Positions 1,166-53,700 of a stretch of DNA of 64,000 nucleotides are shown in pieces (positions within the stretch are counted from its first letter, which is position 1; the number at the start of each line of letters is the position of its first letter). The stretch lies in NCBI GenBank assembly GCA_014843695.1, contig CM026403.1:3658150-3722149 (forward strand), written 5' to 3'. Source of the stretch: Archivesica marissinica (Eukaryota; Mollusca; Bivalvia; Venerida; Vesicomyidae). A program made the translations under genes and the position numbers. The notes under the pieces are model-generated. The model searched no databases. It saw nothing but the letters and a program-made list of their open reading frames with translations, and had not been told where the DNA came from.

Positions 1166-1252
1166 ATTCGAGCGTTTGTTCTTGTGTAAATTATGTAGTG
1201 CGATTGTATCTCTTGTTTTAATTGTTACATGTATTTAATTAACATCTTGTAG

Positions 1253-13645: not shown

Positions 13646-14041
13646 GTAATGGGGCGGACGGCTGCATTTGTTAAATTTTAATATAGTATTACTGTACTGG
13701 ATCTTTCAAAGGTGTGCAGGCATGTAAAACTACAGTAAATCAGTTACAAAATGATTTATGTTTAAATTTATTTTCTATACAATACAAATACAACTGCTGG
13801 TAAAATTCCCTCAACAATATACTAGACCAGTACTTCCTCAGAAAATACTTGTCTGTCTATTAGAAATGCCTGCATTTGTAAAGCACGGTGCAGAATTAAT
13901 TCAATTGACCATATGAATGAGCAGAAACGTCTCTAAATCTGCTGGCGATTATGTTTCTCTATGCCTCAGTCATCGGTGAACAACATCTCTACTAGCTCTG
14001 GTTTTGCACATTGTCCCTCTTCTAATCTTTGAGACTGAAAT

Positions 14042-14420: not shown

Positions 14421-14433
14421 ACATATAGATATT

Positions 14434-17400
14434 TTCAAGATACAATATATTGTCGCATCATCAAGTACAATTTACTGTCACATCTAAACCTCAAGATACA
14501 ATACACTGTCATGTCTAACATTTTATATACAATACACTGTCATCTCTAACCTTCTATATACAATACACTGTCATCTCTAACCTTCTATATACAATACACT
14601 GTCATCTCTAACCTTCTATATACAATACACTGTCATCTCTAACCTTCTATATACAATACACTGTCATCTCTAACCTTCTATATACAATACACTGTCATCT
14701 CTAACCTTTTATATACAATACACTGTCATCTCTAACCTTTTATATACAATACACTGTCATCTCTAACCTTTTATATACAATACACTGTCATCTATAACCT
14801 TTTATATACAATACACTGTCATCTCTAACCTTTTATATACAATACACTGTCATCTCTAACCTTCTATATACAATACACTGTCAGCTCTAACCTTTTATAT
14901 ACAATACACTGTCATCTCTAACCTTTTATATACAATATACTGTCATCTATAACCTTTTAGATACAATACACTGTCATCTATTACCTTTTATATACAATAC
15001 ACCGTCATCTATAACCTGTTATATACAATACACTGTCATCGCTAACCCACTGTCATCTATAACCTTTTATATACAATACACTGTCATCTCTAACCTTCTA
15101 TATACAATACACTGTCATCTCTAACCTTTTATATACAATACACTGTCAGCTCTAACCTTCTATATACAATACACTGTCATCGCTAACCTTTTATATACAA
15201 TACACTGTCATCTCTAACCTTTTATATACAATACACTGTCAGCTCTAACCTTCTATATACAATACACTGTCAGCTCTAACCTTTTATATACAATACACTG
15301 TCATTGCTAATCTTCTATATACAATACACTGTCATCTATAACGTTTTAGATACAATACACTGTCATTGCTAACCTTTTATATACAATACACTGTCATCGC
15401 TAACCTTTTATATACAATACACTGTCAGCTCTAACCTTTTATATACAATACACTGTCATCTCTAACCTTTTATATACAATACACTGTCATCTCTAACCTT
15501 TTATATACAATACACTGTCAGCTCTAACCTTCTATATACAATACACTGTCAGCTCTAACCTTTTATATACAATACACTGTCATTGCTAACCTTCTATATA
15601 CAATACACTGTCATCTCTAACCTTTTAATACAATACACTGTCACTAACCTTTTATATACAATACACTGTCATCTCTAACCTTTTATATACAATACACTGT
15701 CATCTCTAACCTTTTATATACAATACACTGTCATCTCTAACCTTTTATATACAATACACTGTCATCTCTAACCTTTTATATACAATACACTGTCATCTCT
15801 AACCTTTTATATACAATACACTGTCATCTCTAACCTTTTATATACAATACACTGTCATCTCTAACCTTTTATATACAATACACTGTCATCTATAACCTTT
15901 TATATACAATACACTGTCATCTCTAACCTTTTATATACAATACACTGTCATCTCTAACCTTCTATATACAATACACTGTCAGCTCTAACCTTTTATATAC
16001 AATACACTGTCATCTCTAACCTTTTATATACAATATACTGTCATCTATAACCTTTTAGATACAATACACTGTCATCTATTACCTTTTATATACAATACAC
16101 CGTCATCTATAACCTGTTATATACAATACACTGTCATCGCTAACCCACTGTCATCTATAACCTTTTATATACAATACACTGTCATCTCTAACCTTCTATA
16201 TACAATACACTGTCATCTCTAACCTTTTATATACAATACACTGTCAGCTCTAACCTTCTATATACAATACACTGTCATCGCTAACCTTTTATATACAATA
16301 CACTGTCATCTCTAACCTTTTATATACAATACACTGTCAGCTCTAACCTTCTATATACAATACACTGTCAGCTCTAACCTTTTATATACAATACACTGTC
16401 ATTGCTAATCTTCTATATACAATACACTGTCATTGCTAATCTTCTATATACAATACACTGTCATTGCTAACCTTTTATATACAATACACTGTCATCGCTA
16501 ACCTTTTATATACAATACACTGTCATCTCTAACCTTTTATATACAATACACTGTCATCTATAACGTTTTAGATACAATACACTGTCATTGCTAACCTTTT
16601 ATATACAATACACTGTCATCGCTAACCTTTTATATACAATACACTGTCAGCTCTAACCTTTTATATACAATACACTGTCATCTCTAACCTTTTATATACA
16701 ATACACTGTCAGCTCTAACCTTCTATATACAATACACTGTCAGCTATAACCTTTTATATACAATACACTGTCAGCTCTAACCTTCTATATACAATACACT
16801 GTCAGCTCTAACCTTTTATATACAATACACTGTCATCTCTAACCTTTTATATACAATACACTGTCATCTCTAACCTTCTATATACAATACACTGTCATCT
16901 CTAACGTTTTAGATACAATACACTGTCATTGCTAACCTTCTATATACAATACACTGTCATCTATAATGTTTTAGATACAATACACTGTCATCTATAACGT
17001 TTTATATACAATACACTGTCATCTCTAACCTTTTATATACAATACACTGTCATCTATAACGTTTTAGATACAATACACTGTCATTGCTAACCTTTTATAT
17101 ACAATACACTGTCATCGCTAACCTTTTATATACAATACACTGTCAGCTCTAACCTTTTATATACAATACACTGTCATCTCTAACCTTTTATATACAATAC
17201 ACTGTCAGCTCTAACCTTCTATATACAATACACTGTCAGCTATAACCTTTTATATACAATACACTGTCAGCTCTAACCTTCTATATACAATACACTGTCA
17301 GCTCTAACCTTTTATATACAATACACTGTCATCTCTAACCTTTTATATACAATACACTGTCATCTCTAACCTTCTATATACAATACACTGTCATCTATAA

Positions 17401-20400
17401 CGTTTTAGATACAATACACTGTCATTGCTAACCTTTTATATACAATACACTGTCATCGCTAACCTTTTATATACAATACACTGTCAGCTCTAACCTTTTA
17501 TATACAATACACTGTCATCTCTAACCTTTTATATACAATACACTGTCATCTCTAACCTTTTATATACAATACACTGTCAGCTCTAACCTTCTATATACAA
17601 TAAACTGTCAGCTCTAACCTTTTATATACAATACACTGTCATTGCTAATCTTCTATATACAATACACTGTCATCTATAACGTTTTAGATACAATACACTG
17701 TCATTGCTAACCTTTTATATACAATACACTGTCATCGCTAACCTTTTATATACAATACACTGTCAGCTCTAACCTTTTATATACAATACACTGTCATCTC
17801 TAACCTTTTATATACAATACACTGTCATCTCTAACCTTTTATATACAATACACTGTCAGCTCTAACCTTCTATATACAATAAACTGTCAGCTCTAACCTT
17901 TTATATACAATACACTGTCATTGCTAATCTTCTATATACAATACACTGTCATCTATAACGTTTTAGATACAATACACTGTCATCTCTAACCTTTTATATA
18001 CAATACACTGTCATCTCTAACCTTTTATATACAATACACTGTCATCTATAACCTTTTATATACAATACACTGTCATCTCTAACCGTTTATATACAATACA
18101 CTGTCATCTCTAACCTTCTATATACAATACACTGTCAGCTCTAACCTTTTATATACAATACACTGTCATCTCTAACCTTTTATATACAATATACTGTCAT
18201 CTATAACCTTTTAGATACAATACACTGTCATCTATTACCTTTTATATACAATACACCGTCATCTATAACCTGTTATATACAATACACTGTCATCGCTAAC
18301 CCACTGTCATCTATAACCTTTTATATACAATACACTGTCATCTCTAACCTTCTATATACAATACACTGTCATCTCTAACCTTTTATATACAATACACTGT
18401 CAGCTCTAACCTTCTATATACAATACACTGTCATCTATAACGTTTTAGATACAATACACTGTCATTGCTAACCTTTTATATACAATACACTGTCATCGCT
18501 AACCTTTTATATACAATACACTGTCAGCTCTAACCTTTTATATACAATACACTGTCATCTCTAACCTTTTATATACAATACACTGTCATCTCTAACCTTT
18601 TATATACAATACACTGTCAGCTCTAACCTTCTATATACAATAAACTGTCAGCTCTAACCTTTTATATACAATACACTGTCATTGCTAATCTTCTATATAC
18701 AATACACTGTCATCTATAACGTTTTAGATACAATACACTGTCATTGCTAACCTTTTATATACAATACACTGTCATCGCTAACCTTTTATATACAATACAC
18801 TGTCAGCTCTAACCTTTTATATACAATACACTGTCATCTCTAACCTTTTATATACAATACACTGTCAGCTCTAACCTTCTATATACAATACACTGTCAGC
18901 TATAACCTTTTATATACAATACACTGTCAGCTCTAACCTTCTATATACAATACACTGTCAGCTCTAACCTTTTATATACAATACACTGTCATCTCTAACC
19001 TTTTATATACAATACACTGTCATCTCTAACCTTCTATATACAATACACTGTCATCTCTAACCTTTTATATACAATACACTGTCATCTCTAACCTTTTATA
19101 TACAATACACTGTCATCTCTAACCTTTTATATACAATACACTGTCATCTCTAACCTTTTATATACAATACACTGTCATCTATAACCTTTTATATACAATA
19201 CACTGTCATCTCTAACCTTTTATATACAATACACTGTCATCTCTAACCTTTTATATACAATACACTGTCATCTCTAACCTTTTATATACAATACACTGTC
19301 ATCTATAACCTTTTATATACAATACACTGTCATCTCTAACCTTTTATATACAATACACTGTCATCTATTACCTTTTATATACAATACACCGTCATCTATA
19401 ACCTGTTATTACAATACACTGTCATCGCTAACCCACTGTCATCTATACCTTTTATATACAATACACTGTCATCTCTAACCTTCTATATACAATACACTGT
19501 CATCTCTAACCTTTTATATACAATACACTGTCAGCTCTAACCTTCTATATACAATACACTGTCATCGCTAACCTTTTATATACAATACACTGTCATCTCT
19601 AACCTTTTATATACAATACACTGTCAGCTCTAACCTTCTATATACAATACACTGTCAGCTCTAACCTTTTATATACAATACACTGTCATTGCTAATCTTC
19701 TATATACAATACACTGTCATCTATAACGTTTTAGATACAATACACTGTCATTGCTAACCTTTTATATACAATACACTGTCATCGCTAACCTTTTATATAC
19801 AATACACTGTCATCTCTAACCTTTTATATACAATACACTGTCATCTATAACGTTTTAGATACAATACACTGTCATTGCTAACCTTTTATATACAATACAC
19901 TGTCATCGCTAACCTTTTATATACAATACACTGTCAGCTCTAACCTTTTATATACAATACACTGTCATCTCTAACCTTTTATACAATACACTGTCAGCTC
20001 TAACCTTCTATATACAATACACTGTCAGCTATACCCTTTTATATACAATACACTGTCAGCTCTAACCTCTACCTTCTATATACAATACACTGTCAGCTCT
20101 AACCTTTTATATACAATACACTGTCATCTCTAACCTTTTTATATACAATACACTGTCATCTCTAACCTTCTATATACAATACACTGTCATCTCTAACGTT
20201 TTAGATACAATACACTGTCATTGCTAACCTTCTATATACAATACACTGTCATCTATAATGTTTTAGATACAATACACTGTCATCTATAACGTTTTATATA
20301 CAATACACTGTCATCTCTAACCTTTTATATACAATACACTGTCATCTATACGTTTTAGATACAATACACTGTCATCTTGCTAACCTTTTTATACAATATA

Positions 20401-21079
20401 CACTGTCATCGCTAACCTTTTATATACAATACACTGTCAGCTCTAACCTTTTATATACAATACACTGTCATCTCTAACCTTTTATATACAATACACTGTC
20501 AGCTCTAACCTTCTATATACAATACACTGTCAGCTATAACCTTTTATATACAATACACTGTCAGCTCTAACCTTCTATATACAATACACTGTCAGCTCTA
20601 ACCTTTTATATACAATACACTGTCATCTCTAACCTTTTATATACAATACACTGTCATCTCTAACCTTCTATATACAATACACTGTCATCTCTAACGTTTT
20701 AGATACAATACACTGTCATTGCTAACCTTCTATATACAATACACTGTCATCTATAATGTTTTAGATACAATACACTGTCATCTATAACCTTCTATATACA
20801 ATACACTGTCATCTATAACGTTTTAGATACAATACACTGTCATTGCTAACCTTTTATATACAATACACTGTCATCGCTAACCTTTTATATACAATACACT
20901 GTCATCTATAACCTTTTATATACAATACACTGTCATTGCTAATCTTCTATATACAATACACTGTCATCTATAACGTTTTAGATACAATACACTGTCATTG
21001 CTAACCTTTTATATACAATACACTGTCATCGCTAACCTTTTATATACAATACACTGTCAGCTCTAACCTTTTATATACA
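14434..21079. repeat. 31-bp satellite array, left of gap
   Basis: Roughly 210 copies of a 31-bp unit, ctctaaccttttatatacaa plus tacactgtcat. Recurrent variants are cagctctaacc, cattgctaatc, catcgctaacc and ataacgttttagatac. A truncated unit (gctaacccactgtcat) marks a higher-order period of about 1.1 kb: positions near 15042, 16139, 18296 and 19427. A cluster of small indels at about 19380-20400 looks like consensus error. The array stops at the run of Ns. Confidence 0.97.
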
Positions 21080-22079
21080 NNNNNNNNNNNNNNNNNNNNN
21101 NNNNNNNNNNNNNNNNNNNNNNNNNNNNNNNNNNNNNNNNNNNNNNNNNNNNNNNNNNNNNNNNNNNNNNNNNNNNNNNNNNNNNNNNNNNNNNNNNNNN
21201 NNNNNNNNNNNNNNNNNNNNNNNNNNNNNNNNNNNNNNNNNNNNNNNNNNNNNNNNNNNNNNNNNNNNNNNNNNNNNNNNNNNNNNNNNNNNNNNNNNNN
21301 NNNNNNNNNNNNNNNNNNNNNNNNNNNNNNNNNNNNNNNNNNNNNNNNNNNNNNNNNNNNNNNNNNNNNNNNNNNNNNNNNNNNNNNNNNNNNNNNNNNN
21401 NNNNNNNNNNNNNNNNNNNNNNNNNNNNNNNNNNNNNNNNNNNNNNNNNNNNNNNNNNNNNNNNNNNNNNNNNNNNNNNNNNNNNNNNNNNNNNNNNNNN
21501 NNNNNNNNNNNNNNNNNNNNNNNNNNNNNNNNNNNNNNNNNNNNNNNNNNNNNNNNNNNNNNNNNNNNNNNNNNNNNNNNNNNNNNNNNNNNNNNNNNNN
21601 NNNNNNNNNNNNNNNNNNNNNNNNNNNNNNNNNNNNNNNNNNNNNNNNNNNNNNNNNNNNNNNNNNNNNNNNNNNNNNNNNNNNNNNNNNNNNNNNNNNN
21701 NNNNNNNNNNNNNNNNNNNNNNNNNNNNNNNNNNNNNNNNNNNNNNNNNNNNNNNNNNNNNNNNNNNNNNNNNNNNNNNNNNNNNNNNNNNNNNNNNNNN
21801 NNNNNNNNNNNNNNNNNNNNNNNNNNNNNNNNNNNNNNNNNNNNNNNNNNNNNNNNNNNNNNNNNNNNNNNNNNNNNNNNNNNNNNNNNNNNNNNNNNNN
21901 NNNNNNNNNNNNNNNNNNNNNNNNNNNNNNNNNNNNNNNNNNNNNNNNNNNNNNNNNNNNNNNNNNNNNNNNNNNNNNNNNNNNNNNNNNNNNNNNNNNN
22001 NNNNNNNNNNNNNNNNNNNNNNNNNNNNNNNNNNNNNNNNNNNNNNNNNNNNNNNNNNNNNNNNNNNNNNNNNNNNNNN
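21080..22079. other. Assembly gap of exactly 1000 N
   Basis: A round-number block of N, so it is a scaffolding placeholder and not a measured length. The sequence right of it repeats sequence that starts 9454 bp earlier on the left, and the left end of the gap matches sequence about 9315 bp further on. Reading frames crossing it are meaningless. Confidence 0.98.
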
Positions 22080-22399
22080 ATGACAAGGATTTTCTTTCCA
22101 TTGGGCGACAATGACAAGGATTTTCTTTCCGTTGGGCGACAATGACAAGGATTTTCTTTCCGTTGGGCGACAATGACAAGGTTTTTCTATTCGTTGGGCG
22201 ACAATGATTTTCTTTCCGTTGGGCGACAATGACAAGGTTTTTCTTTTCGTTGGGCGACAATGACAAGGATTTTCTTTCCGTTGGGCGACAATGACAAGGT
22301 TTTTCTTTTCGTTGGGCGACAATGATTTTCTTTCCGTTGGGCGACAATGACAAGGTTTTTCTTTTCGTTGGGCGACAATGACAAGGTTTTTCTTTTGGA
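22080..22399. repeat. 31-bp minisatellite (second appearance)
   Basis: Repeats 12626-12945 base for base as far as I can see. The array begins abruptly at the gap edge inside a unit. Confidence 0.93.
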
Positions 22400-22738
22400 A
22401 CTGGCCAATTTACAAAAGAACCCAGACGGGCGAGGTTTTATATAAGAATAAATTGGATAAAATAGCTGTTACAAGATATTCCTTTATCGTCACCTAGTGG
22501 CCAATTTATTTAACGAAAGTGGTCGGTTATCGGCAGGAACCTAGATTTGATCAAACTATATCTGGTGTCGACTTGTAACAATCTTAATTACTAGTGTGTA
22601 CAAGGCAAATATTGACAAACGTCGATCACAATATGCCACATTGAGCTTTTGGTTCAGGTGAGCTAAAATTTAGTTACTTGTGCCGGTAGACGGACATGAC
22701 ATCATGGGTGCATTATATCAATAAGATGTTTATACAAA

Positions 22739-23099
22739 TTTATCTTAGCTCGATTGCGAAACAATTTCCTACAACTTATATTAACCGTTAGCACGCTGTA
22801 GGCGAAATGAGCAGATAACAAATATGTAATATATTTCTTATTCTTCCTCGAAAGTAGGGCTTGTGACATTTCATTCAAATCGTCCCATCTCTGCTCATTT
22901 CGCCTACAGCATGCTAAAGGTTAATCACTCTCGAGACCTCATTTATGATGGAATCCATCGCCACGAGGGAGAGAGCAGAGGCAATGTGGAATTGAAATGC
23001 CTTGCCTAAGGGCACAATCGTAACGGCTCCAGCGGGGCTCAATCTCCGGACCTGAAGCGTACGCACATCCACTGCGCTATCACGACTTCCACATAAGAT
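22739..23099 (-). mobile_element. SINE-B (second appearance)
   Basis: Same element as 13285-13645, including the nested insertion. Confidence 0.82.
22785..22920. mobile_element. piggyBac-like miniature element (second appearance)
   Basis: Same element as 13331-13466, flanked by TTAA at both ends. Confidence 0.82.
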
Positions 23100-23495
23100 G
23101 TAATGGGGCGGACGGCTGCATTTGTTAAATTTTAATATAGTATTACTGTACTGGATCTTTCAAAGGTGTGCAGGCATGTAAAACTACAGTAAATCAGTTA
23201 CAAAATGATTTATGTTTAAATTTATTTTCTATACAATACAAATACAACTGCTGGTAAAATTCCCTCAACAATATACTAGACCAGTACTTCCTCAGAAAAT
23301 ACTTGTCTGTCTATTAGAAATGCCTGCATTTGTAAAGCACGGTGCAGAATTAATTCAATTGACCATATGAATGAGCAGAAACGTCTCTAAATCTGCTGGC
23401 GATTATGTTTCTCTATGCCTCAGTCATCGGTGAACAACATCTCTACTAGCTCTGGTTTTGCACATTGTCCCTCTTCTAATCTTTGAGACTGAAAT

Positions 23496-23874
23496 ACATA
23501 TGCATGAAACACAAGTGCCAGGCGCAAAACACAAGTCCCAGATGGAAGACACAAGTCTCAGACAGAAGACACAAGTCCTCGCCGGAAGAAACGAGTCCCG
23601 AAGAAAGACACGAGTCCCGAAGAAAGACACGAGTCCCGAAGAAAGACACGAGTCCCGAAGAAAGACACGAGTCCCGAAGAAAGACACGAGTCCCGAAGGA
23701 AGACACGAGTCTCAGAATGAAGACACAAGTCCTCGCCGGAAGAAACGAGTACCGTAGGAAGACACGAGTCCCAGATAGAAGACACAAGTCCCAGATGGAA
23801 GAAACGAGTCTCAGATGGAAAACACGAGTCTCAGATGAAAGACACAAGTCTCAGATGGAAGACCAGAGTCCCAG
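23496..23874. repeat. 19/20-bp minisatellite (second appearance)
   Basis: Repeats 14042-14420 exactly as far as I can tell. Confidence 0.93.
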
Positions 23875-23887
23875 ACATATAGATATT

Positions 23888-26800
23888 TTCAAGATACAAT
23901 ATATTGTCGCATCATCAAGTACAATTTACTGTCACATCTAAACCTCAAGATACAATACACTGTCATGTCTAACATTTTATATACAATACACTGTCATCTC
24001 TAACCTTCTATATACAATACACTGTCATCTCTAACCTTCTATATACAATACACTGTCATCTCTAACCTTCTATATACAATACACTGTCATCTCTAACCTT
24101 CTATATACAATACACTGTCATCTCTAACCTTCTATATACAATACACTGTCATCTCTAACCTTTTATATACAATACACTGTCATCTCTAACCTTTTATATA
24201 CAATACACTGTCATCTCTAACCTTTTATATACAATACACTGTCATCTATAACCTTTTATATACAATACACTGTCATCTCTAACCTTTTATATACAATACA
24301 CTGTCATCTCTAACCTTCTATATACAATACACTGTCAGCTCTAACCTTTTATATACAATACACTGTCATCTCTAACCTTTTATATACAATATACTGTCAT
24401 CTATAACCTTTTAGATACAATACACTGTCATCTATTACCTTTTATATACAATACACCGTCATCTATAACCTGTTATATACAATACACTGTCATCGCTAAC
24501 CCACTGTCATCTATAACCTTTTATATACAATACACTGTCATCTCTAACCTTCTATATACAATACACTGTCATCTCTAACCTTTTATATACAATACACTGT
24601 CAGCTCTAACCTTCTATATACAATACACTGTCATCGCTAACCTTTTATATACAATACACTGTCATCTCTAACCTTTTATATACAATACACTGTCAGCTCT
24701 AACCTTCTATATACAATACACTGTCAGCTCTAACCTTTTATATACAATACACTGTCATTGCTAATCTTCTATATACAATACACTGTCATCTATAACGTTT
24801 TAGATACAATACACTGTCATTGCTAACCTTTTATATACAATACACTGTCATCGCTAACCTTTTATATACAATACACTGTCACTCTAACCTTTTATATACA
24901 ATACACTGTCATCTCTAACCTTTTATATACAATACACTGTCATCTCTAACCTTTTATATACAATACACTGTCAGCTCTAACCTTCTATATACAATACACT
25001 GTCAGCTCTAACCTTTTATATACAATACACTGTCATCTCTAACCTTCTATATACAATACACTGTCATCTCTAACCTTCTATATACAATACACTGTCACTA
25101 ACCTTTTATATACAATACACTGTCAGCTCTAACCTTCTATATACAATACACTGTCAGCTCTAACCTTTTATATACAATACACTGTCATCTCTAACCTTTT
25201 ATATACAATACACTGTCATCTCTAACCTTCTATATACAATACACTGTCATCTCTAACCTTTTATATACATTACACTGTCATCTCTAACCTTTTATATACA
25301 ATACACTGTCATCTCTAACCTTTTATATACAATACACTGTCATCTATAACCTTTTATATACAATACACTGTCATCTCTAACCTTTTATATACAATACACT
25401 CTCATCTCTAACCTTCTATATACAATACACTGTCAGCTATAACCTTTATATACAATACACCGTCATCTCTAACCTTTTATATACAATACACTGTCATCTA
25501 TAACCTTTTATATACAATACACTGTCATCTATAACCTTTTATATACAATACACCGTCATCTATAACCTTTTATATACAACACTGTCATCGCTAACCCACT
25601 GTCATCTATAACCTTTTATATACAATACACTGTCATCTCTAACCTTCTATATACAATACACTGTCATCTCTAACCTTTTATATACAATACACTGTCAGCT
25701 CTAACCTTCTATATACAATACCTGTCATCGCTAACCTTTTATATACAATACACTGTCATCCAACCAAACAAACACCACCAACCCAAACAAACACCACTAT
25801 AACCTTTTATATACAATACACTGTCATTGCTAATCTTCTATATACAATACACTGTCATCTATAACCTTCTATATACAATACACTGTCATTGCTAACCTTT
25901 TATATACAATACACTGTCATCGCTAACCTTTTATATACAATACACTGTCATCTCTAACCTTTTATATACAATACACTGTCATCTATAACCTTTATATACA
26001 ATACACTGTCATCTCTAACCTTTTATATACAATACACTGTCATCTCTAACCTTTTATATACAATACACTGTCAGCTCTAACCTTTTATATACAATACACT
26101 GTCATCTCTAACCTTTTATATACAATACACTGTCACCTCTAACCTTTTATATACAATACACTGTCATCTCTAACCTTTTATATACAATACACTGTCATCT
26201 CTAACCTTCTATATACAATACACTGTCATCTCTAACCTTTTATATACAATACACTGTCATCTCTAACCTTTTATATACAATACACTGTCATCTCTAACCT
26301 TTTATATACAATACACTGTCATCTCTAACCTTTTATATACAATACACTGTCATCTCTAACCTTTTATATACAATACACTGTCATCTAAACTTTTATATAC
26401 AATACACTGTCATCTATAACCTTTTATATACAATACACTGTCATCTATAACCTTTTATATACAATACACTGTCATCTCTAACATACAAACACTGTCATCT
26501 ATAACCTTTTATATACAATACACTGTCATCTCTAACCTTCTATATACAATACACTGTCATCTCTAACCTTTTATATACAATACACTGTCAGCTCTAACCT
26601 TCTATATACAATACACTGTCATCTCTAACCTTTTATATACAATACACTGTCATCTCTAACCTTTTATATACAATACACTGTCAGCTCTAACCTTTATATA
26701 CAATACACTGTCATCTATAACCTTTTATATACAATACACTGTCATTGCTAATCTTCTATATACAATACACTGTCATCTATAACGTTTTAGATACAATACA

Positions 26801-29800
26801 CTGTCATTGCTAACCTTTTATATACAATACACTGTCATCGCTAACCTTTTATATACAATACACTGTCAGCTCTAACCTTTTATATACAATACACTGTCAT
26901 CTCTAACCTTTTATATACAATACACTGTCATCTCTAACCTTTTATATACAATACACTGTCAGCTCTAACCTTCTATATACAATAAACTGTCAGCTCTAAC
27001 CTTTTATATACAATACACTGTCATTGCTAATCTTCTATATACAATACACTGTCATCTATAACGTTTTAGATACAATACACTGTCATTGCTAACCTTTTAT
27101 ATACAATACACTGTCATCGCTAACCTTTTATATACAATACACTGTCAGCTCTAACCTTTTATATACAATACACTGTCATCTCTAACCTTTTATATACAAT
27201 ACACTGTCATCTCTAACCTTTTATATACAATACACTGTCAGCTCTAACCTTCTATATACAATAAACTGTCAGCTCTAACCTTTTATATACAATACACTGT
27301 CATTGCTAATCTTCTATATACAATACACTGTCATCTATAACGTTTTAGATACAATACACTGTCATCTCTAACCTTTTATATACAATACACTGTCATCTCT
27401 AACCTTTTATATACAATACACTGTCATCTATAACCTTTTATATACAATACACTGTCATCTCTAACCTTTTATATACAATACACTGTCATCTCTAACCTTC
27501 TATATACAATACACTGTCAGCTCTAACCTTTTATATACAATACACTGTCATCTCTAACCTTTTATATACAATATACTGTCATCTATAACCTTTTAGATAC
27601 AATACACTGTCATCTATTACCTTTTATATACAATACACCGTCATCTATAACCTGTTATATACAATACACTGTCATCGCTAACCCACTGTCATCTATAACC
27701 TTTTATATACAATACACTGTCATCTCTAACCTTCTATATACAATACACTGTCATCTCTAACCTTTTATATACAATACACTGTCAGCTCTAACCTTCTATA
27801 TACAATACACTGTCATCGCTAACCTTTTATATACAATACACTGTCATCTCTAACCTTTTATATACAATACACTGTCATTGCTAATCTTCTATATACAATA
27901 CACTGTCATCTATAACGTTTTAGATACAATACACTGTCATTGCTAACCTTTTATATACAATACACTGTCATCGCTAACCTTTTATATACAATACACTGTC
28001 AGCTCTAACCTTTTATATACAATACACTGTCATCTCTAACCTTTTATATACAATACACTGTCAGCTCTAACCTTCTATATACAATACACTGTCAGCTATA
28101 ACCTTTTATATACAATACACTGTCAGCTCTAACCTTCTATATACAATACACTGTCAGCTCTAACCTTTTATATACAATACACTGTCATCTCTAACCTTTT
28201 ATATACAATACACTGTCATCTCTAACCTTCTATATACAATACACTGTCATCTCTAACCTTTTATATACAATACACTGTCATCTCTAACCTTTTATATACA
28301 ATACACTGTCATCTCTAACCTTTTATATACAATACACTGTCATCTCTAACCTTTTATATACAATACACTGTCATCTATAACCTTTTATATACAATACACT
28401 GTCATCTCTAACCTTTTATATACAATACACTGTCATCTCTAACCTTTTATATACAATACACTGTCATCTCTAACCTTTTATATACAATACACTGTCATCT
28501 ATAACCTTTTATATACAATACACTGTCATCTCTAACCTTTTATATACAATACACTGTCATCTCTAACCTTCTATATACAATACACTGTCAGCTCTAACCT
28601 TTTATATACAATACACTGTCATCTCTAACCTTTTATATACAATATACTGTCATCTATAACCTTTTAGATACAATACACTGTCATCTATTACCTTTTATAT
28701 ACAATACACCGTCATCTATAACCTGTTATATACAATACACTGTCATCGCTAACCCACTGTCATCTATAACCTTTTATATACAATACACTGTCATCTCTAA
28801 CCTTCTATATACAATACACTGTCATCTCTAACCTTTTATATACAATACACTGTCAGCTCTAACCTTCTATATACAATACACTGTCATCGCTAACCTTTTA
28901 TATACAATACACTGTCATCTCTAACCTTTTATATACAATACACTGTCAGCTCTAACCTTCTATATACAATACACTGTCAGCTCTAACCTTTTATATACAA
29001 TACACTGTCATTGCTAATCTTCTATATACAATACACTGTCATCTATAACGTTTTAGATACAATACACTGTCATTGCTAACCTTTTATATACAATACACTG
29101 TCATCGCTAACCTTTTATATACAATACACTGTCATCTCTAACCTTTTATATACAATACACTGTCATCTATAACGTTTTAGATACAATACACTGTCATTGC
29201 TAACCTTTTATATACAATACACTGTCATCGCTAACCTTTTATATACAATACACTGTCAGCTCTAACCTTTTATATACAATACACTGTCATCTCTAACCTT
29301 TTATATACAATACACTGTCAGCTCTAACCTTCTATATACAATACACTGTCAGCTATAACCTTTTATATACAATACACTGTCAGCTCTAACCTTCTATATA
29401 CAATACACTGTCAGCTCTAACCTTTTATATACAATACACTGTCATCTCTAACCTTTTATATACAATACACTGTCATCTCTAACCTTCTATATACAATACA
29501 CTGTCATCTCTAACGTTTTAGATACAATACACTGTCATTGCTAACCTTCTATATACAATACACTGTCATCTATAATGTTTTAGATACAATACACTGTCAT
29601 CTATAACGTTTTATATACAATACACTGTCATCTCTAACCTTTTATATACAATACACTGTCATCTATAACGTTTTAGATACAATACACTGTCATTGCTAAC
29701 CTTTTATATACAATACACTGTCATCGCTAACCTTTTATATACAATACACTGTCAGCTCTAACCTTTTATATACAATACACTGTCATCTCTAACCTTTTAT

Positions 29801-32800
29801 ATACAATACACTGTCAGCTCTAACCTTCTATATACAATACACTGTCAGCTATAACCTTTTATATACAATACACTGTCAGCTCTAACCTTCTATATACAAT
29901 ACACTGTCAGCTCTAACCTTTTATATACAATACACTGTCATCTCTAACCTTTTATATACAATACACTGTCATCTCTAACCTTCTATATACAATACACTGT
30001 CATCTCTAACGTTTTAGATACAATACACTGTCATTGCTAACCTTCTATATACAATACACTGTCATCTATAATGTTTTAGATACAATACACTGTCATCTAT
30101 AACCTTCTATATACAATACACTGTCATCTATAACGTTTTAGATACAATACACTGTCATTGCTAACCTTTTATATACAATACACTGTCATCGCTAACCTTT
30201 TATATACAATACACTGTCATCTATAACCTTTTATATACAATACACTGTCATTGCTAATCTTCTATATACAATACACTGTCATCTATAACGTTTTAGATAC
30301 AATACACTGTCATTGCTAACCTTTTATATACAATACACTGTCATCGCTAACCTTTTATATACAATACACTGTCAGCTCTAACCTTTTATATACAATACAC
30401 TGTCATCTCTAACCTTTTATATACAATACACTGTCATCTCTAACCTTTTATATACAATACACTGTCAGCTCTAACCTTCTATATACAATAAACTGTCAGC
30501 TCTAACCTTTTATATACAATACACTGTCATTGCTAATCTTCTATATACAATACACTGTCATCTATAACGTTTTAGATACAATACACTGTCATTGCTAACC
30601 TTTTATATACAATACACTGTCATCGCTAACCTTTTATATACAATACACTGTCAGCTCTAACCTTTTATATACAATACACTGTCATCTCTAACCTTTTATA
30701 TACAATACACTGTCATCTCTAACCTTTTATATACAATACACTGTCAGCTCTAACCTTTTATATACAATACACTGTCATCTCTAACCTTTTATATACAATA
30801 CACTGTCATCTCTAACCTTTTATATACAATACACCATCATCTCTAACCGTTTATATACAATACACTGTCATCGCTAACCTTTTATATACAATACACTGTC
30901 ATCTCTAACCTTTTATATACAATACACTGTCATCTCTAACCTTCTATATACAATACACTGTCATCTCTAACCTTTTATATACAATACACTGTCATCTCTA
31001 ACCTTCTATATACAATACATTGTCAGCTCTAACCTTTTATATACAATACACTGTCATCTCTAACTTTTTATATACAATACACTGTCAGCTCTAACCTTCT
31101 ATATACAATACACTGTCAGCTCTAACCTTTTATATACAATACACTGTCATTGCTAATCTTCTATATACAATACACTGTCATCTATAACGTTTTAGATACA
31201 ATACACTGTCATTGCTAATCTTCTATATACAATACACTGTCATCGCTAACCCACTGTCATCTCTAACCTTTTATATACAATACACTGTCAGCTCTAACCT
31301 TCTATATACAATACACTGTCAGCTCTAACCTTTTATATACAATACACTGTCATCTCTAACCTTTTATATACAATACACTGTCATCTATAACCTTTTATAT
31401 ACAATACACTGTCATTGCTAATCTTCTATATACCATACACTGTCATCTATAACGTTTTAGATACAATACACTGTCATTGCTAACCTTTTATATACAATAC
31501 ACTGTCATTGCTAACCTTTTATATACAATACACTGTCATTGCTAATCTTCTATATACAATACACTGTCATTGCTAATCTTCTATATACAATACACTGTCA
31601 TTGCTAACCTTTTATATACAATACACTGTCATCGCTAACCTTTTATATACAATACACTGTCATTGCTAACCTTTTATATACAATACACTGTCATTGCTAA
31701 TCTTCTATATACAATACACTGTCATTGCTAATCTTCTATATACAATACACTGTCATCTCTAACCTTTTATATACAATACACTGTCATCTCTAACCTTCTA
31801 TATACAATACATTGTCAGCTCTAACCTTTTATATACAATACACTGTCATCTCTAACTTTTTATATACAATACACTGTCAGCTCTAACCTTCTATATACAA
31901 TACACTGTCAGCTCTAACCTTTTATATACAATACACTGTCATTGCTAATCTTCTATATACAATACACTGTCATCTATAACGTTTTAGATACAATACACTG
32001 TCATTGCTAACCTTCTATATACAATACACTGTCATCGCTAACCAATACAATACACTGTCACTCTAACCTTTATATACAATACACTGTCATCTCTAACCTT
32101 TTATATACAATACACTGTCATCTCTAACCTTTTATATACAATACACTGTCAGCTCTAACCTTCTATATACAATACACTGTCAGCTCTAACCTTTTATATA
32201 CAATACACTGTCATCTCTAACCTTTTATATACAATACACTGTCATCTATAACCTTTTATATACAATACACTGTCATTGCTAATCTTCTATATACAATACA
32301 CTGTCATCTATAACGTTTTAGATACAATACACTGTCATTGCTAACCTTTTATATACAATACACTGTCATTGCTAACCTTTTATATACAATACACTGTCAT
32401 TGCTAATCTTCTATATACAATACACTGTCATTGCTAATCTTCTATATACAATACACTGTCATTGCTAACCTTTTATATACAATACACTGTCATCGCTAAC
32501 CTTTTATATACAATACACTGTCATTGCTAACCTTTTATATACAATACACTGTCATTGCTAATCTTCTATATACAATACACTGTCATTGCTAATCTTCTAT
32601 ATACAATACACTGTCATCTCTAACCTTTTATATACAATACACTGTCATCTCTAACCTTTTATATACAATACACTGTCAGCTCTAACCTTTTATATACAAT
32701 ACACTGTCATCTCTAACCTTTTATATACAATACACTGTCATCTCTAACCTTTTATATACAATACACTGTCAGCTCTAACCTTTTATATACAATACACTGT

Positions 32801-33350
32801 CATTGCTAACCTTTTATATACAATACACTGTCAGCTCTAACCTTTTATATACAATACACTGTCATTGCTAACCTTTTATATACAATACACTGTCATTGCT
32901 AACCTTTTATATACAATACACGGTCATCTCTAACCTTTTATATACAATACACTGTCAGCTCTAACCTTTTATATACAATACACTGTCAGCTCTAACCTTC
33001 TATATACAATACACCGTCATCTCTAACCTTTTATATACAATACACCGTCATCTATAACCTTTTATATACAATACACTGTCATCTCTAACCTTTTATATAC
33101 AATACACTGTCAGCTCTAACCTTTTATATACAATACACTGTCAGCTCTAACCTTTTATATACAATACACTGTCATCTCTAACCTTTTATATACAATACAC
33201 TGTCAGCTATAACCTTTTATATATAATACACTGTCATCTCTAACCTTTTATATACAATACACCGTCATCTATAACCTTTTATATACAATACACTGTCATA
33301 TTTCAATATACAATACAGTATATCACATTTGAACCTCAAGATACAATACA
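23888..33350. repeat. 31-bp satellite array, right of gap
   Basis: About 300 copies of the same 31-bp unit as the left array. The first ~900 bp match the left array exactly (offset 9454); then small indels appear from about 24880. The truncated marker unit recurs near 24494, 25589, 27676, 28748 and 31244. On the minus strand each common unit reads TATATAAAAGGTTAGAG, which contains a TATA-box consensus. Errors cluster at 25385-26700, including a foreign CA-rich piece at about 25761-25798. The array decays into degenerate units near 33300. Confidence 0.97.
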
Positions 33351-33479: not shown

Positions 33480-35346
33480 TATTGGGATTAATGTGTAATG
33501 GTGTATTTTGTTTATGTGTGGCAGTGTATTTTGTTTATGTGTGGCAGTGTATTTTGTCTTTGGTTTAGGTGTGATAGTGTATTATGTATTGGGTTTAGGT
33601 GTGATAGTGTATTATGTATTGGGTTTAGGTGTGATAGTGTATTGGGTTTAGGTGTGATAGTGTATTATGTATAGGGTTTAGGTGTGATAGTGTATTATGT
33701 CTTGGGTTTAGGTGTGATAGTGTATTATGTATTGGGGTTAGGTGTGATAGTGTATTATGTCTTGGGTTTAGGTGTGATAGTGTATTATGTCTTGGGTTTA
33801 GGTGTGATAGTGTATTATGTATAGGGTTTAGGTGTGATAGTGTATTATGTATTGGGTTTAGGTGTGGTAGTGTATTATGTCTTGGGTTTAGGTGTGATAG
33901 TGTATTATGTCTTGGGTTTAGGTGTGATAGTGTATTATGTCTTGGGTTTAGGTGTGATAGTGTATTATGTCTTGGGTTTAGGTGTGATAGTGTATTATGT
34001 ATTGGGTTTAGGTGTGACAATGCATTATGTATTGGGTTTAGGTGTGATAGTGTATTATGTCTTGGGTTTAGGTGTGGTATTGTATTATGTATAGGGTTTA
34101 GGTGTGATAGTGTATTATGTCTTGGGTTTAGGTGTGATAGTGTATTATGTCTTGGGTTTAGGTGTGATAGTGTATTATGTCTTGGGTTTAGGTGTGATAG
34201 TGTATTATGTCTTGGGTTTAGGTGTGATAGTGTATTATGTATTGGGTTTAGGTGTGACAATGCATTATGTATTGGGTTTAGGTGTGATAGTGTATTATGT
34301 CTTGGGTTTAGGTGTGGTATTGTATTATGTATAGGGTTTAGGTGTGATAGTGTATTATGTCTTGGGTTTAGGTGTGATAGTGTATTATGTATTGGGGTTA
34401 GGTGTGATAGTGTATTATGTCTTGGGTTTAGGTGTGATAGTGTATTATGTCTTGGGTTTAGGTGTGATAGTGTATTATGTCTTGGGTTTAGGTGTGGTAG
34501 TGTATTATGTATAGGGTTTAGGTGTGATAGTGTATTATGTCTTGGGTTTAGGTGTGATAGTGTATTATGTCTTGGGTTTAGGTGTGATAGTGTATTATGT
34601 CTTGGGTTTAGGTGTGGTAGTGTATTATGTATAGGGTTTAGGTGTGATAGTGTATTATGTCTTGGGTTTAGGTGTGATAGTGTATTATGTATTGGGGTTA
34701 GGTGTGATAGTGTATTATGTCTTGGGTTTAGGTGTGATAATGTATTATGTATAGGGTTTAGGTGTGATAGTGTATTATGTCTTGGGTTTAGGTGTGATAT
34801 TGTATTATGTATAGGGTTTAGGTGTGATAGTGTATTATGTATTGGGCTTAGGTGTGATAGTGTATTATGTATAGGGTTTAGGTGTGATAGTGTATTATGT
34901 ATTGGGTTTAGGTGTGATAGTGTATTATGTCTTGGGCTTAGGTGTGATAGTGTATTATGTATTGGGTTTAGGTGTGATAGTGTATTATGTCTTGGGTTTA
35001 GGTGTGATAGTGTATTATGTATAGGGTTTAGGTGTGACAATGTATTATGTCTTAGGTTTAGGTGTGATAGTGTATTATGTATTGGGTTTAGGTGTGATAG
35101 TGTATTATGTATTGGGTTTAGGTGTGATAGTGTATTATGTATTGGGTTTAGGTGTGATAGTGTATTATGTATTGGGTTTAGGTGTGATAGTGTATTATGT
35201 CTTGGGTTTAGGTGTGATAGTGTATTATGTATTGGGTTTAGGTGTGGTAGTGTATTATATATTGGGTTTAGGTGTGATAGTGTATTATGTATTGGGTTTA
35301 GGTGTGATAGTGTATTATGTATTGGGGTTAGGTGTGATAGTGTATA
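33480..35346. repeat. 30-bp minisatellite, about 60 copies
   Basis: Very regular tandem units of tgtgatagtgtattatgtct plus tgggtttagg, with c/a, t/a and g/a variants; divergent units occur before 33590. Because 30 is a multiple of three, both strands stay open over long distances: 586 codons on the minus strand from a true ATG at 35385, of the form TLSHLNPRHN repeated, and GVIVYYVLGL repeats on the plus strand. I consider these frames by-products. The gggttta motif resembles telomeric repeats only superficially. Confidence 0.96.
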
Positions 35347-35529
35347 AATGCATTGGGCTATATTGTCAGCAGGCAACAGTCGCATTGGACACTAATGAAG
35401 TGTGTATATAATAAAGGTTGTGTTTTGAGTGAAATAATAGCAACATCTACTGTGAAATGGATATGGTTTCCGTCTCATAACCAATTGGTTGAGAATTTGG
35501 ACCGGAACCACGGTGGTGCTGTCATTAGG

Positions 35530-35686: not shown

Positions 35687-38048
35687 CTGTCCAATCTTCA
35701 TCAACGTTGGTACACTCTTCAATCGCAAGCTTAGGTCTTTACGAAAATCATTGTTTTGGTCTTTCCAGCTGAAGGCAGAAGAAAGATTCCCTTTCTGATT
35801 TTGGAGTCCTGTTTTGGGCAACTCATTTATTATATTCTCTGAAACTGCACCTGCAGCTGAATTAATCAACACATGATTGAGTTGCTGGCATGTGATTACA
35901 CTTATAATTGTTCATAGATGAATTAATTACAATATTATATATAACACTGGTCCAGTGGTTGTCTCCCTTACAAGATATATATAGAGACTATTAAGTTACA
36001 GTAGCACGATGGACTGGTAATTCAGGGATCGCAGGTTCGATCTCCCATCTGACTCTAATAAAATTAACAATCTTTCAGATGGGACTTTAAACCGTGGTAT
36101 TGTGTCGGTGCTGTACACCATGCACATAAATGAACCAGAGGAGACCCTGGAATGGGTCTCTATCTGTATCATTGCACTATCCTCCAAAAATCTAAAATGA
36201 TTAATCTCTTCAGGAGGCGTCGCTCATATGGGCAACCGGTAGAGACGATAAATAAATGCAACACACACACAAATTACCGTCTTATAAATTTTATGTTATA
36301 TGTTATATTACGGGTTTTACGCCTGCATCAGCACCATTTTGGGCTATATCGCCGGCGGGCAGTTTACCGAACAACACCTTTCCTGGGCAGGCTCCAGCGG
36401 TTAACCAGTACTTGGGTGCACCAACCGCCATAAGAAAGTGCCAACTTTTTCATATAAATGAGACACGGCCTGAGAGGGGCTCGAACCCGTGACCATCAGT
36501 GATGATAGGTTACAGTGGTATCCAAGTCAGCGACCGTAACCACTCGACCACGGAGGCGGACTATAAATTTTAATTCATTAGTTGGAGAACATATATAACG
36601 AGAGGCTATGTCAAGCCTTGTATTGTTTTCGGAGACGAGCCTAATAATTTAAAATTTATAAGACAGTAACCTAATATTGTATTTATCCATCCTATCTTCT
36701 GATAAAAAGGGAAGTTTTAGAGAGGAAAGATAACTGAATATACATGATCTGAAGTTTATCATACCACCTGTGAACATATGACGTCATACACGCAGCGCTA
36801 TGACGCCACAAATTCTTTATTAGCAACCTAAGATTTAACATAGTACTCTGGCCTTTTGACAGCAGTCCAATATTAATAATAATGGACTGTAAGTACGATG
36901 GTATGACGTCACGATGGTGTTTTAATACTTACAATGCTATATCACCGACACCACACATACAATGCTATATCACCGACACCACACTTACAATGCTCTATCA
37001 CCGACACCACACATACAATGCTGTATCACCGACACCACACATACAATGCTATATCACCGACACCACACTTACAATGCTATATCACCAACACCACACTTAC
37101 AATGCTATATCACCGACACCACACTTACAATGCTATATCACCATCACCACACATACAATGCTATATCACCAACACCACACTTACAATGCTCTATCACCAA
37201 CACCACAGTGAATGAAGACAGCATCCTCCGGAAGTTTTTGAAGATGGGCTTCCACAACAGGATCAGCTACAGCAAATAATACAGGTATTTTTATTTGTAA
37301 AGAAGTACTCTTGAGGTTATGTTGTTCAGGTTATATAGTATAATACATATTGTTCAGGTTATATAGTATAATACATATTGTTAGTGCAGATTAACCTGTC
37401 TCTTTATACATTCAAATTATTTGCAAGAATTCACAGATAGATGGACTTAAATAATTTTATGCATCATCAAATAGGAGAAGCCACAGGCACTCGACGTGGA
37501 GCTAGGACACAATAAAGGAGAACATAGCCGCCGCCTCTTCTGACACCCCCATGGACCAGATCTCCCCTTGGCGGGTCAGGAGGGGTGGCCGGCTATGTTC
37601 TAGTTGTGTTTTAGCTACACGCCGAGTGCCTGTGAGACAAGCATGTAATCGTCATCAGTCTATCTCTATTCCTTAGACTTATGGTAGTCATATTCCTCCT
37701 ATGTCTAGTTCAGCAATTGATGTTGACTTTCCAAGATGATAGGTAGTGCCTATTTCATAGTAGGCTAGCATATGTATTAATGTGTTACTGTGTCATCCAA
37801 TTGAATTGTATCAATTGTATTTCATAGCGTTTTCTACTTTCACTTTCACTATTGACTAAATATGTTATGGATTTGTAATACCTCTGTTCACATATCCCCT
37901 TACCGGTCACACAGTCCGGACACCAGCTTTTACCATCCTTGCCAACTGAACCAGAAAACAGGGCAAACAGTGTCTTCCCTGTGTGTTCGCCAACTGCTGA
38001 TTTAAATGCATCATACCCCTGGACATGTAATTTTAAGATGTTTGACAT
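35687..38048 (-). CDS. TXNDC17: Thioredoxin domain-containing protein 17 (TRP14), three exons, 3' end not found
   Basis: A cytosolic thioredoxin-fold oxidoreductase; the family is reduced by thioredoxin reductase and acts on a narrow set of substrates such as cystine and protein disulfides. Exons on the minus strand are 38048-37904, 37266-37185 and 35768-35687. Exon 1 begins MSNILKLHVQGYDAF and contains GKSWCPDCVT with the WCPDC active-site motif typical of TRP14. Exon 2 reads ADPVVEAHLQKLPEDAVFIH followed by CGVGDRA. Exon 3 reads WKDQNNDFRKDL..LKSVPTLMKIGQ with the conserved cis-proline (VPT). Junction codons close exactly (G|CT Ala, TT|C Phe), with donors gtaagg, gtaagt and gtagta and acceptors tgtag and cttcag. 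About 20 C-terminal residues of the family are missing; reading on past exon 3 gives VVGYFIR and a stop. An upstream in-frame ATG at 38063 is possible but fits the family less well. Confidence 0.92.
35990..36272 (+). mobile_element. SINE-A copy
   Basis: A tRNA-derived SINE with an A-box-like gtagcacgatgga, a B-box gcaggttcgatctcc, and the body 'cagatgggactttaaaccg..gtgtcggtgctgtacacc'. It ends ggcaaccggtagagacgata plus an AC-rich tail. It lies in the intron between TXNDC17 exons 2 and 3. Confidence 0.85.
36273..36670. mobile_element. Inverted-repeat element split by SINE-D
   Basis: The ends are inverted repeats, 19 of 21 bases matching: attaccgtcttataaattt at 36273 onward and, on the other strand, gttactgtcttataaattt from 36670. 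The interior left after removing the SINE is about 110 bp, and I see no reading frame. The outer target duplication is not clear. Confidence 0.6.
36294..36561 (-). mobile_element. SINE-D copy with 11-bp target duplication
   Basis: On its own strand it has the head 'gtggtcgagtggttacggtcgctgactt' and a B-box-like ggtcacgggttcgagcccc, and ends 'agcccaaaatggtgctgatgcaggcgtaaaa'. Flanks are tataaatttta at 36283-36293 and 36562-36572. It matches the copy at 3430-3678 and interrupts an older inverted-repeat element. Confidence 0.87.
36571..36930. other. TXNDC17 intron sequence without recognised content
   Basis: Apart from the right arm of the inverted-repeat element ending at 36670, this is plain AT-rich intron. 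I see no exon, promoter or repeat that I can support. Confidence 0.6.
36932..37206. repeat. 28-bp minisatellite duplicating the TXNDC17 exon 2 splice donor
   Basis: Ten near-identical 28-bp units (plus strand acaatgctatatcaccgaca plus ccacactt). On the gene's strand each unit is the last 23 bases of exon 2 plus the first five bases of the intron, so each recreates the exon end and a donor. Six junctions read GTAAG and four read GTATG. The true donor is at 37184-37183 and the last one is exactly 252 bases further into the intron, at 36932-36931. Confidence 0.95.
37310..37382. repeat. 28-bp direct duplication
   Basis: Two adjacent copies of ttgttcaggttatatagtat plus aatacata, in the first TXNDC17 intron. 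Confidence 0.85.
37482..37634. mobile_element. Miniature hAT-like element, family M1 (copy 1)
   Basis: A 153-bp element with ~40-bp imperfect inverted ends, cacaggcactcgacgtggag on the left and cacaggcactcggcgtgtag read inward from the right. Flanks ggagaagc and agacaagc agree at 6 of 8 bases, compatible with an aged 8-bp hAT target duplication. A second copy is at 44672-44920. It lies in TXNDC17 intron 1. Confidence 0.78.
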
Positions 38049-50767: not shown

Positions 50768-53700
50768 TGGAGAGCTATAATGCGACGCTGCTATATTGTG
50801 AGTCCGTTTAGCCGGAGGCGTGCTATGACGTTAAGTAACCTCTGGCGTGATGTGAAGGCCCGTAAGTTAATACCAATAATTTTATCGAATTGTTTTTCCT
50901 ATTTCTAACGGACTTTTAAAATTCAACTTCGGTTTCGGCTCCATCCAATGTCAGTGTTAATTCCACTAACTAATCTGTCTCTTAGCATTACTTCTATATT
51001 ATCTAGCCGGATGAAAGTGCTATGACGTTGAGTCCGTATATCCGGATGAGAGTGCTATGACGTTGAGTCCGTATAGCCGGATGAGAGGGCTATGACGTTG
51101 AGTCCGAATAGCCGGATAAGAGTACTATTACGTTGAGTCCGTATAGCCGGATGAGAGGGCTATGACGTTGAGTCCGTATAGCCGGATGAGAGTGCTATGA
51201 CGTGAGTCCGTATAGACGGATGAGAGTGCTATTACGTTGAGTCCGTATAGCCGGGTGAGAGTGCTATTACGTTCAGTCCGTATAGCCGGGTGAGCGTGCT
51301 ATGACGTTGAGTCCGTTTAGCCGGATGATAGTGCTATTACGTTGAGTCCGTATAGCTGGGTGAGAGTGCTATTACGTTCAGTCCGTATAGCCGGGTGAGC
51401 GTCCTATGATGTTGAGTCCGTTTAGCCGGATGAGAGGGCTATGACGTTGAGTCCGAATAGCCGGATAAGAGTACTATTACGTTGAGTCCGTATAGCCGGA
51501 TGAGAGGGCTATGACGTTGAGTCCGTATAGCCGGATGAGAGTGCTATGACGTGAGTCCGTATAGACGGATGAGAGTGCTATTACGTTGAGTCCGTATAGC
51601 CGGGTGAGAGTGCTATTACGTTCAGTCCGTATAGCTGGGTGAGAGTGCTATTACGTTCAGTCCGTATAGCCGGGTGAGAGTGCTATTACGTTGAGTCCGT
51701 ATAGTCGGATGAGAGTGCTATTACGTTCAGTCCGTATAGCCGGATGATAGTGCTATGACGTGAATCCGTATAGCCGAATGAGAGTGCTATGACGTTGAGT
51801 CCGTATAGCCGGATGAGAGTGCCATGACGTTGAGTCCGTATAGCTGGGTGAGAGTGCTATTACGTTCAGTCCGTATAGCCGGGTGAGAGTGCTATTACGT
51901 TGAGTCCGTATAGTCGGATGAGAGTGCTATTACGTTCAGTCCGTATAGCCGGATGATAGTGCTATGACGTGAATCCGTATAGCCGAATGAGAGTGCTATG
52001 ACGTTGAGTCCGTATAGCCGGATGAGAGTGCCATGACGTTGAGTCCGTATAGCCGGATGAGAGTGCTATTACATTGAGTCCGTATAGCCTGGTGAGAGTG
52101 CTATGACATTGAGTCCGTATAGCCGGATGAGAGTGCTATGACGTGAGTCCGTATAGCCGGATGAGAGTGCTATTACGTTGAGTCCGCATAGCCGGATGAG
52201 AGTGCTATGACGTTGAGTCCGTATAGCCGGATGAGAGTGCTATGACGTGTGTCCAATTAGCCGGATGAGAGTGTTATGAACCGAGCCCTTATAGCCGGAG
52301 GAGTGATATAATGTGAGCCTGTTGTTTTGTGCTATTAAAATAATACCAAATCAATAAATTCATCATAAATTGTCATTTAGTTTCTGGTAACCTCTGGCGT
52401 GATGTGAAAGTCCGTAAGTTAATACCATTCATTAAATCAATGATAAATTATAATGTTGGTAACCTCTGGCGTGATGTGAATGTCCGTATGTTAATACCAA
52501 TCAGTAAACATTGATATATTGTAATATAGGTAACCTCTGGCGTGATGTGAAAGTCCGTAAGTTAATACCAATCAATAAATCAATCATAAATTGTAATATA
52601 GGTAACCTCTGGCGTGATGTGAAGGCCCGTAAGTTAATACCAATCGTGTTATCGAATTGTTTTTCCTATTTCTAACGCACTTTTAAAATCCAACTTCGGC
52701 TTTGGCTCCGGCTCCACCCAATGTCAGTGTTAATTCCACTAACTAATCTGTCACTTAGCATTACTTCTATATTATCTAGCCAGATGAAAGTGCTACGACT
52801 TTGAGTCCGTATGGCCGGGTGAGAGTGCTATGACGTGAGTCCGTATAGCCGGATGAGAGTGCTATGACGTTGAGTCCGTATAGCCGGGTGAGAGTGCTAT
52901 GGCGTGAGTCCGTTTAGCCGGATGAGAGTGCTATGACGTTGAGTCCGTATAGCCGGATGAGAGTGCTATTACGTTGAGTCCGCATAGCCTGATGAGAGTG
53001 CTATGACGTTGAGTCCGTATAGCCGGATGAGAGTGCTATGACGTGAGTCCGTATAGCCGGATGAGAGTGCTATGACGTTGAGTCCGTATAGCCGGATGAG
53101 AGTGCTATGACGTTGAGTCCGTATAGCCGGATGAGAGTGCTATTACGTTGAGTCCGTATAGCCTGATGAGAGTGCTATGGCGTTGAGTCCGTATAGCCGG
53201 ATGAGAGTGCTATGACGTGAGTCCGTATAGCCGGATGAGAGTGCTATTACGTTGAGTCCGTATAGCCGGATGAGAGTGCTATGACGTGAGTCCGTATAGC
53301 CGGATGAGAGTGCTATGACGTTGAGTCCGTATAGCCGGATGAGAGTGCTAAGACGTTGAGTCCGTATAGCCGGGTGAGAGTGCTATGACGTTGAGTCCGT
53401 ATAGCCGGATGAGTGTGCTATGACGTGAGTCCGTATATCCGGATGAGAGTGTTATGACATGAGTCCGTATAGCCAAATAAGAGTGCTATTACGTTGAGTC
53501 CGTATAGCCGGATGAGAGTGTAATGACGTTGAGTCCGTATAGCCGGATGAGAGTGCTATGACGTTGAGTCCGTATAGCCGGATGAGAGTGTAATGACGTT
53601 GAGTTCGTATTGCCGGATGAGAGTGCTATGACGTGAGTCCGTATAGCCGGATGAGTGTGCTATGACGTTCAGTCCGTATAGCCGGATGAAAGTGCTATAA

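Follow-up and report, generated by a model that had tools for sequence, protein, structure and literature searches.

The TXNDC17 gene of the clam Archivesica marissinica (Vesicomyidae) carries a 28-bp minisatellite of ten units across the boundary between its second exon and second intron, where the first unit holds the real donor of the coding exon and the remaining nine hold donor-like sites. We identified this array in a 64,000-nucleotide stretch of contig CM026403.1 (assembly GCA_014843695.1, positions 3,658,150 to 3,722,149, forward strand), which is referred to here as the window and in which all positions are counted. The array is probably a boundary-spanning minisatellite at which donor 1 dominates, with a minor unproductive leak through the other donors, and which is mostly a passenger in the gene.

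The locus can be read as a complete bivalve TXNDC17 (TRP14) gene of four exons, with the following parts (a slash marks an exon-intron junction here and below):

37904..38048, minus strand: exon 1 (145 nt of coding sequence from the ATG), which contains the active-site motif WCPDC and has the donor CCG/GTAAGG
37185..37266, minus strand: exon 2, 82 nt long, with donor 1 at its end
35687..35768, minus strand: exon 3, 82 nt, preceded by the acceptor AG at 35770-35769
23420..23488, minus strand: exon 4, coding part up to the stop, nearer copy
13966..14034, minus strand: exon 4, second identical copy, past an N gap in a duplicated stretch

Conceptual translation of the four exons gives a full-length reading frame of 125 codons plus a stop. 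Exons 1 to 3 encode a PF06110 domain (113.8 bits against a cut-off of 23.1), and the WCPDC motif is invariant in 13/13 sequences of an alignment of the clam protein with 12 homologues picked from 69 protein database matches. The closest named match to the protein of exons 1 to 3 comes from Mercenaria mercenaria (77% identity), followed by Mya arenaria and Dreissena polymorpha, and the top sequence matches among solved structures carry the name TXNDC17. An earlier note on this DNA, made from its letters, had named the gene as TXNDC17; the domain, the motif, the 125-aa frame, and the bivalve homologues show that it was right, and its ends for exon 2 (37266-37185) and the acceptor before exon 3 also hold. 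In the alignment with all 12 homologues, no residues are inserted where exons 2 and 3 meet, and the product of donor 1 is thus the ancestral one.

The array and its donors have the following layout:

36928..37207, minus strand: 28-bp minisatellite of ten units, of which units 2 to 10 lie inside intron 2
37183..37184, minus strand: donor 1 (GT), the sole one of the ten that encodes full TXNDC17
36932..37156, minus strand: decoy donors 2 to 10, with first bases from 37156 to 36932 (five GTAAGT and four GTATGT)
37181..37183, minus strand: TAA reached in frame whenever donor 1 is skipped over

Tandem Repeats Finder (TRF) places the array at 36927-37207, with 10.0 copies of 28 bp, a score of 478, 94% matches, and 0% indels, values that argue against a chance resemblance. 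The units run head to tail and have a length within the range of minisatellites (about 10-100 bp). On the minus strand, all ten align without gaps, from unit 1 (37207-37180) to unit 10 (36955-36928). Unit 1 consists of the final 23 nt of exon 2 followed by the five intron bases GTAAG, so that the exon end with donor 1 reads GCATT/GTAAGT; this 23+5 division is one of two equivalent rotations of the unit, because one further base (T) matches at the intron end. Each of the other units differs from unit 1 at one to three positions, variation is confined to 4 of the 28 columns, and the mean pairwise divergence is 6.3%. Units 4 and 10 are identical, as are units 6 and 9, which fits block copying or conversion inside the array. 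Among the BLAST matches listed, there were no further copies of the unit elsewhere in the window. The earlier note had derived the array from the exon-intron boundary by exact repetition of 23 exon and 5 intron bases. The origin is borne out by ten units in register across the junction, and the register is indeed exact and gap-free, but the copies are not identical. The range given there (36931..37266) covers the array but takes in the rest of exon 2 and falls a few bases short of the far end of unit 10.

The ten donors begin at 37184, 37156, 37128, 37100, 37072, 37044, 37016, 36988, 36960, and 36932 (37184 minus 28k). Six units carry GTAAGT (units 1, 3, 4, 5, 8, and 10), and four carry GTATGT (units 2, 6, 7, and 9). 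We translated all ten conceptual isoforms: donor 1 yields the 125-aa protein, and donors 2 to 10 (9/9) yield one and the same 76-aa product that terminates at the TAA at 37183-37181. With donors 4, 7, and 10, the added length is divisible by three, yet the stop is met first. The stop follows the junction immediately because a phase-2 intron that starts with GTAAG always reads NNG TAA when it is read through. The last donor lies 252 bases from the first, which is a multiple of three because it is the product of 9 units and 28 bases. Thus, the counts of six and four donors and the restriction of full-length product to the first donor (37184-37183), both claimed in the earlier note, agree with the unit alignment and the translations; its further point that the frame is kept across 252 bases with the stop included also stands, although both halves of it are automatic. 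In the decoy isoforms, the stop lies 106-330 nt ahead of the exon 3/4 junction, and these transcripts would therefore satisfy the usual distance rule for nonsense-mediated decay (NMD).

These features suggest a simple history. A 28-bp tandem duplication would by chance have included the boundary between exon 2 and intron 2 and would have been amplified to ten copies by slippage or unequal exchange, the processes that presumably filled the region with arrays. The first copy would have stayed the true exon end and donor, and the nine others would have become decoy donors in the intron, of which five share its GTAAGT. Most likely, donor 1 makes nearly all productive mRNA, and occasional use of a downstream donor would run into the TAA after the junction and lead to NMD; the gene may well absorb so small a loss. 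The anatomy, the effects on frame and stop, and the homology come directly from the sequence, whereas donor usage, decay, and near-neutrality are inferred. The array may be regarded mostly as a passenger of its genomic neighborhood.

That neighborhood is rich in minisatellites. In the window, 23 merged arrays with a period of at least 10 cover 33,200 of 63,000 non-N bases (53%, in a count that excludes one TRF row bridging the N gap), or 47% without the doubled stretch 12626-21079. Within intron 3 of TXNDC17, 11,612 of 12,198 bases are array. At such a density, an array across a splice junction is not very improbable by chance: under random placement, the expected number of founding units over any of the six TXNDC17 junctions is 0.04-0.08 per window, a rough figure that ignores selection and comes from a window chosen for the find. 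Many such arrays would be expected across a genome of like character.

Several other repeats lie in or near the introns of this gene. Most of intron 3 is occupied by a very long 31-bp minisatellite (consensus ATACAATACACTGTCATCTCTAACCTTTTAT; 14435-21079 and 23889-33299), and a 30-bp array (33501-35357) lies in the same intron. An array of about 20-bp units, pyrimidine rich on the minus strand (23529-23872, with a copy at 14075-14418), stops 41 bases before exon 4 and has an acceptor-like CTGAG in some units; it is a second array near a TXNDC17 splice site. Shortly before exon 2, intron 1 contains another 28-bp repeat with 2.2 copies of unrelated sequence (37322-37382).

Precedents from human genes support the dominance of donor 1. 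The closest precedent found is ABCA7: in passages of a study of this gene (PMC5954066), a variable number tandem repeat (VNTR) of 25-bp units in intron 18 is described, in which the array opens with the GT of the exon 18 donor. Use of the donor in the next unit retains one unit and causes a frameshift and a premature stop. This one-unit isoform made up 2 ± 1% of transcripts, at similar levels across the tissues tested and without an effect of VNTR length (PMC5954066). Stop-bearing transcripts rose under cycloheximide, indicating that they are sensitive to NMD, and skipping of exon 19 increased strongly with VNTR length (p = 3.24e-13), being 4.1-fold higher on a 9,711-bp than on an 837-bp allele in one person (PMC5954066). 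As far as these passages go, the clam array resembles that of ABCA7 in having a donor in each unit, of which the first is the true donor of the exon, and in the premature stop that follows use of the next one. It differs in that the clam unit includes 23 exon-end bases, whereas the ABCA7 array starts at the donor and no exon bases are described there as repeated. ABCA7 alleles have about 12 to 427 units, compared with ten units in a single clam assembly, and ABCA7 splicing has been measured, whereas that of the clam array is predicted from DNA sequence.

The minisatellite of IFI6 (6-16, G1P3), described by Turri et al. in 1995, reportedly has a 12-bp unit that keeps the frame. According to the sentence that cites this work in PMC4526556, two downstream units serve as donors, giving three mRNA species, and the isoforms reportedly code for different proteins. 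Another phrase citing the work concerns minisatellites that interfere with splicing. Unlike the IFI6 donors so described, every downstream donor in the clam meets a stop. The low use of the next-unit donor in ABCA7, together with the downstream donors of IFI6, is the precedent for an array with a dominant first donor and a small leak.

The strength of the donors weighs against this picture. We estimated it as pairing to the 5' end of U1, which is a crude measure. Donors 1, 3, 4, 5, and 8 scored -8.0 kcal/mol, donor 10 scored -7.4 kcal/mol, and the GTATGT donors scored -4.2 kcal/mol, compared with -8.7 and -9.5 kcal/mol for the donors of exons 1 and 3; a rough donor matrix also scored the GTAAGT copies as equal. 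Five of the nine decoys share the 9-mer ATTGTAAGT with donor 1 (the four at -8.0 and donor 10 at -7.4 kcal/mol), and by this crude pairing measure they rival it on roughly equal terms. In classical competition experiments, the intron-proximal of two equal donors was often favored, and decoy use could therefore be large. Nor is donor 1 more exposed in predicted RNA structure, with a mean unpaired probability of 0.40 against 0.17-0.42 at the others. Exon 2 with the array folds better than plain shuffles (z of -5.2, with 0/100 as low). Arrays of shuffled units folded as well as the real array in 31/200 cases and as well as ten copies of the consensus unit, which fold lower, in 4/200. As a share of the shuffled-unit arrays fold as well and accessibility is similar along the array, we dropped the idea of an RNA structure that hides the decoys or exposes donor 1.

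On its anatomy, the array could possibly have a regulatory role. As the earlier note suggested, the decoys might send a sizeable share of transcripts, varying with array length, to NMD and thereby tune the level of TXNDC17, a splicing rheostat that we consider unlikely; the variation in copy number between individuals that the note expected is likewise conjectural. The rheostat would be consistent with the five strong decoys by U1 pairing, with the stop found in 9/9 decoy isoforms 106-330 nt ahead of the exon 3/4 junction, and with NMD of the analogous stop-bearing ABCA7 isoforms, which cycloheximide raised (PMC5954066). In the same passages, however, use of the next ABCA7 donor is small and does not depend on length, and in the clam the immediate stop is automatic for a phase-2 GTAAG intron, 252 is merely 9 x 28, and arrays of like size are the local norm in the window. 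The donors also show no sign of selection in the column variation among the ten units. GT is intact in 10/10 donors, but the chance that none of the variable columns (4/28) would hit GT is 0.73, and one of the four falls on donor position +4. A codon for an Arg residue that is invariant in 13/13 aligned sequences is altered in 8/9 downstream units, and one downstream unit carries a V-to-D change, suggesting that these units are no longer under coding constraint, as expected for intronic copies. We therefore rejected the proposal of selected donors.

Somewhat less probable is a helper function, in which the extra U1-binding sites downstream would reinforce donor 1 of the short exon 2 and raise correct splicing. 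Binding of U1 close by can enhance the use of an upstream donor, and donor 1 (ATT/GTAAGT) lacks the usual exonic CAG and has U1-like sites every 28 nt behind it. These sites are complete donors, however, and hence also competitors. A slightly smaller chance attaches to the narrower idea that a length-variable decoy ladder has been retained as a rheostat, with copy number and donor strength setting the share lost to NMD and the dose of this redox protein, which would vary between individuals. By analogy with ABCA7, in which exon 19 skipping rises strongly with VNTR length (PMC5954066), longer clam arrays might instead cause skipping of exon 3, which would shift the frame because this exon has 82 nt. 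The ABCA7 effect involved alleles of up to thousands of bases compared with 281 in the clam, and we regard this explanation as improbable.

Least probable is an assembly artifact, in which the array is misassembled or its true copy number differs. The region does contain an unresolved overlap: 12626-21079 and 22080-30456 repeat each other across a 1000-N gap (21080-22079), with the first 2,802 bases identical and the rest, in alignments through the 31-bp array, about 95-97% identical. This doubled stretch, owing to which exon 4 occurs twice, is probably an unmerged overlap of two contig ends or haplotypes. The array itself, at 281 bp, is short for any long-read type, and its units hold several distinct variants in a nonperiodic order.

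Further candidates were set aside. In the potato RdRp gene, as described in passages of PMC4974935, a single tandem duplication across the acceptor at an intron-exon boundary created a new intron. The clam case is similar in that the duplicated segment spans a splice boundary and brings its signals along, but its ten copies lie across a donor and supply no new acceptor, so there is no new intron. On reading, and without an acceptor-scoring program, we found no acceptor in the 28-bp unit; its AGs (TAGAG/TATAG/ACAG and GTAAG) have no preceding pyrimidine tract. We therefore rejected intron gain by tandem duplication, which requires both a donor and an acceptor in the unit. Ten of the 69 database matches were read for truncated TXNDC17 proteins that might reflect decoy splicing; no sequence among them terminates in GDRAL or comes close to identity with the clam protein, which makes them uninformative. 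Earthworm metallothionein was discarded as a precedent because the passages on it describe intronic minisatellites and not a donor array.

The remaining features of the window include two in the introns of TXNDC17: (i) an imperfect 31-nt inverted repeat in intron 1 (37482-37634; 87% complementary, arms 91 nt apart), perhaps a small mobile element; and (ii) a segment of intron 2 (about 36480-36560, minus strand) that reads like the head of a tRNA-derived short interspersed element (GTGGTCGAGTGG ... GGGTTCGAGCCCC). ARAGORN detected no tRNA anywhere in the window. On the plus strand, a 14-3-3 gene has exons at 1252-6207 (tblastn pieces 1252-1506, 3793-3900, and 5845-6207, the last with a PF00244 match of 182 bits). 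Two plus-strand reverse transcriptase open reading frames (ORFs) (PF00078; 42337-43629 and 48665-49249) appear, on reading, to resemble elements without long terminal repeats. A 592-aa ORF (62076-63854, minus strand) has no Pfam match but has 474 database relatives, spread over many animals and metagenome records; the best of them, a Logan protein without a name, is 95% identical across 65% of the length, and the ORF probably encodes a mobile-element protein. A long 35-bp array (TAGCCGGATGAGAGTGCTATGACGTTGAGTCCGTA; 51004-60434) is broken by 72-bp repeat blocks (about 52386-52645, 53806-53997, 56191-56451, and 58148-58408), with another at 60529-60803.

No literature on a donor array in clam TXNDC17 was found among the matches listed. 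Both the architecture and the consequence proposed for it, from decoy donor and stop to NMD and length variation, have already been published for human genes. What the clam contributes is a different gene, a different phylum, and a unit that takes in 23 exon bases. The single TXNDC17 locus is thus an instructive example rather than a discovery. Since the clam copies are near-identical, 28 nt apart, and all but the first unproductive, decoy use would be easily visible in transcripts. Boundary-spanning minisatellites of this kind offer a natural experiment on the choice that the spliceosome makes among many near-equal donors in tandem. Many comparable loci may exist in a mollusc genome rich in minisatellites, and two human anecdotes would then become a survey.
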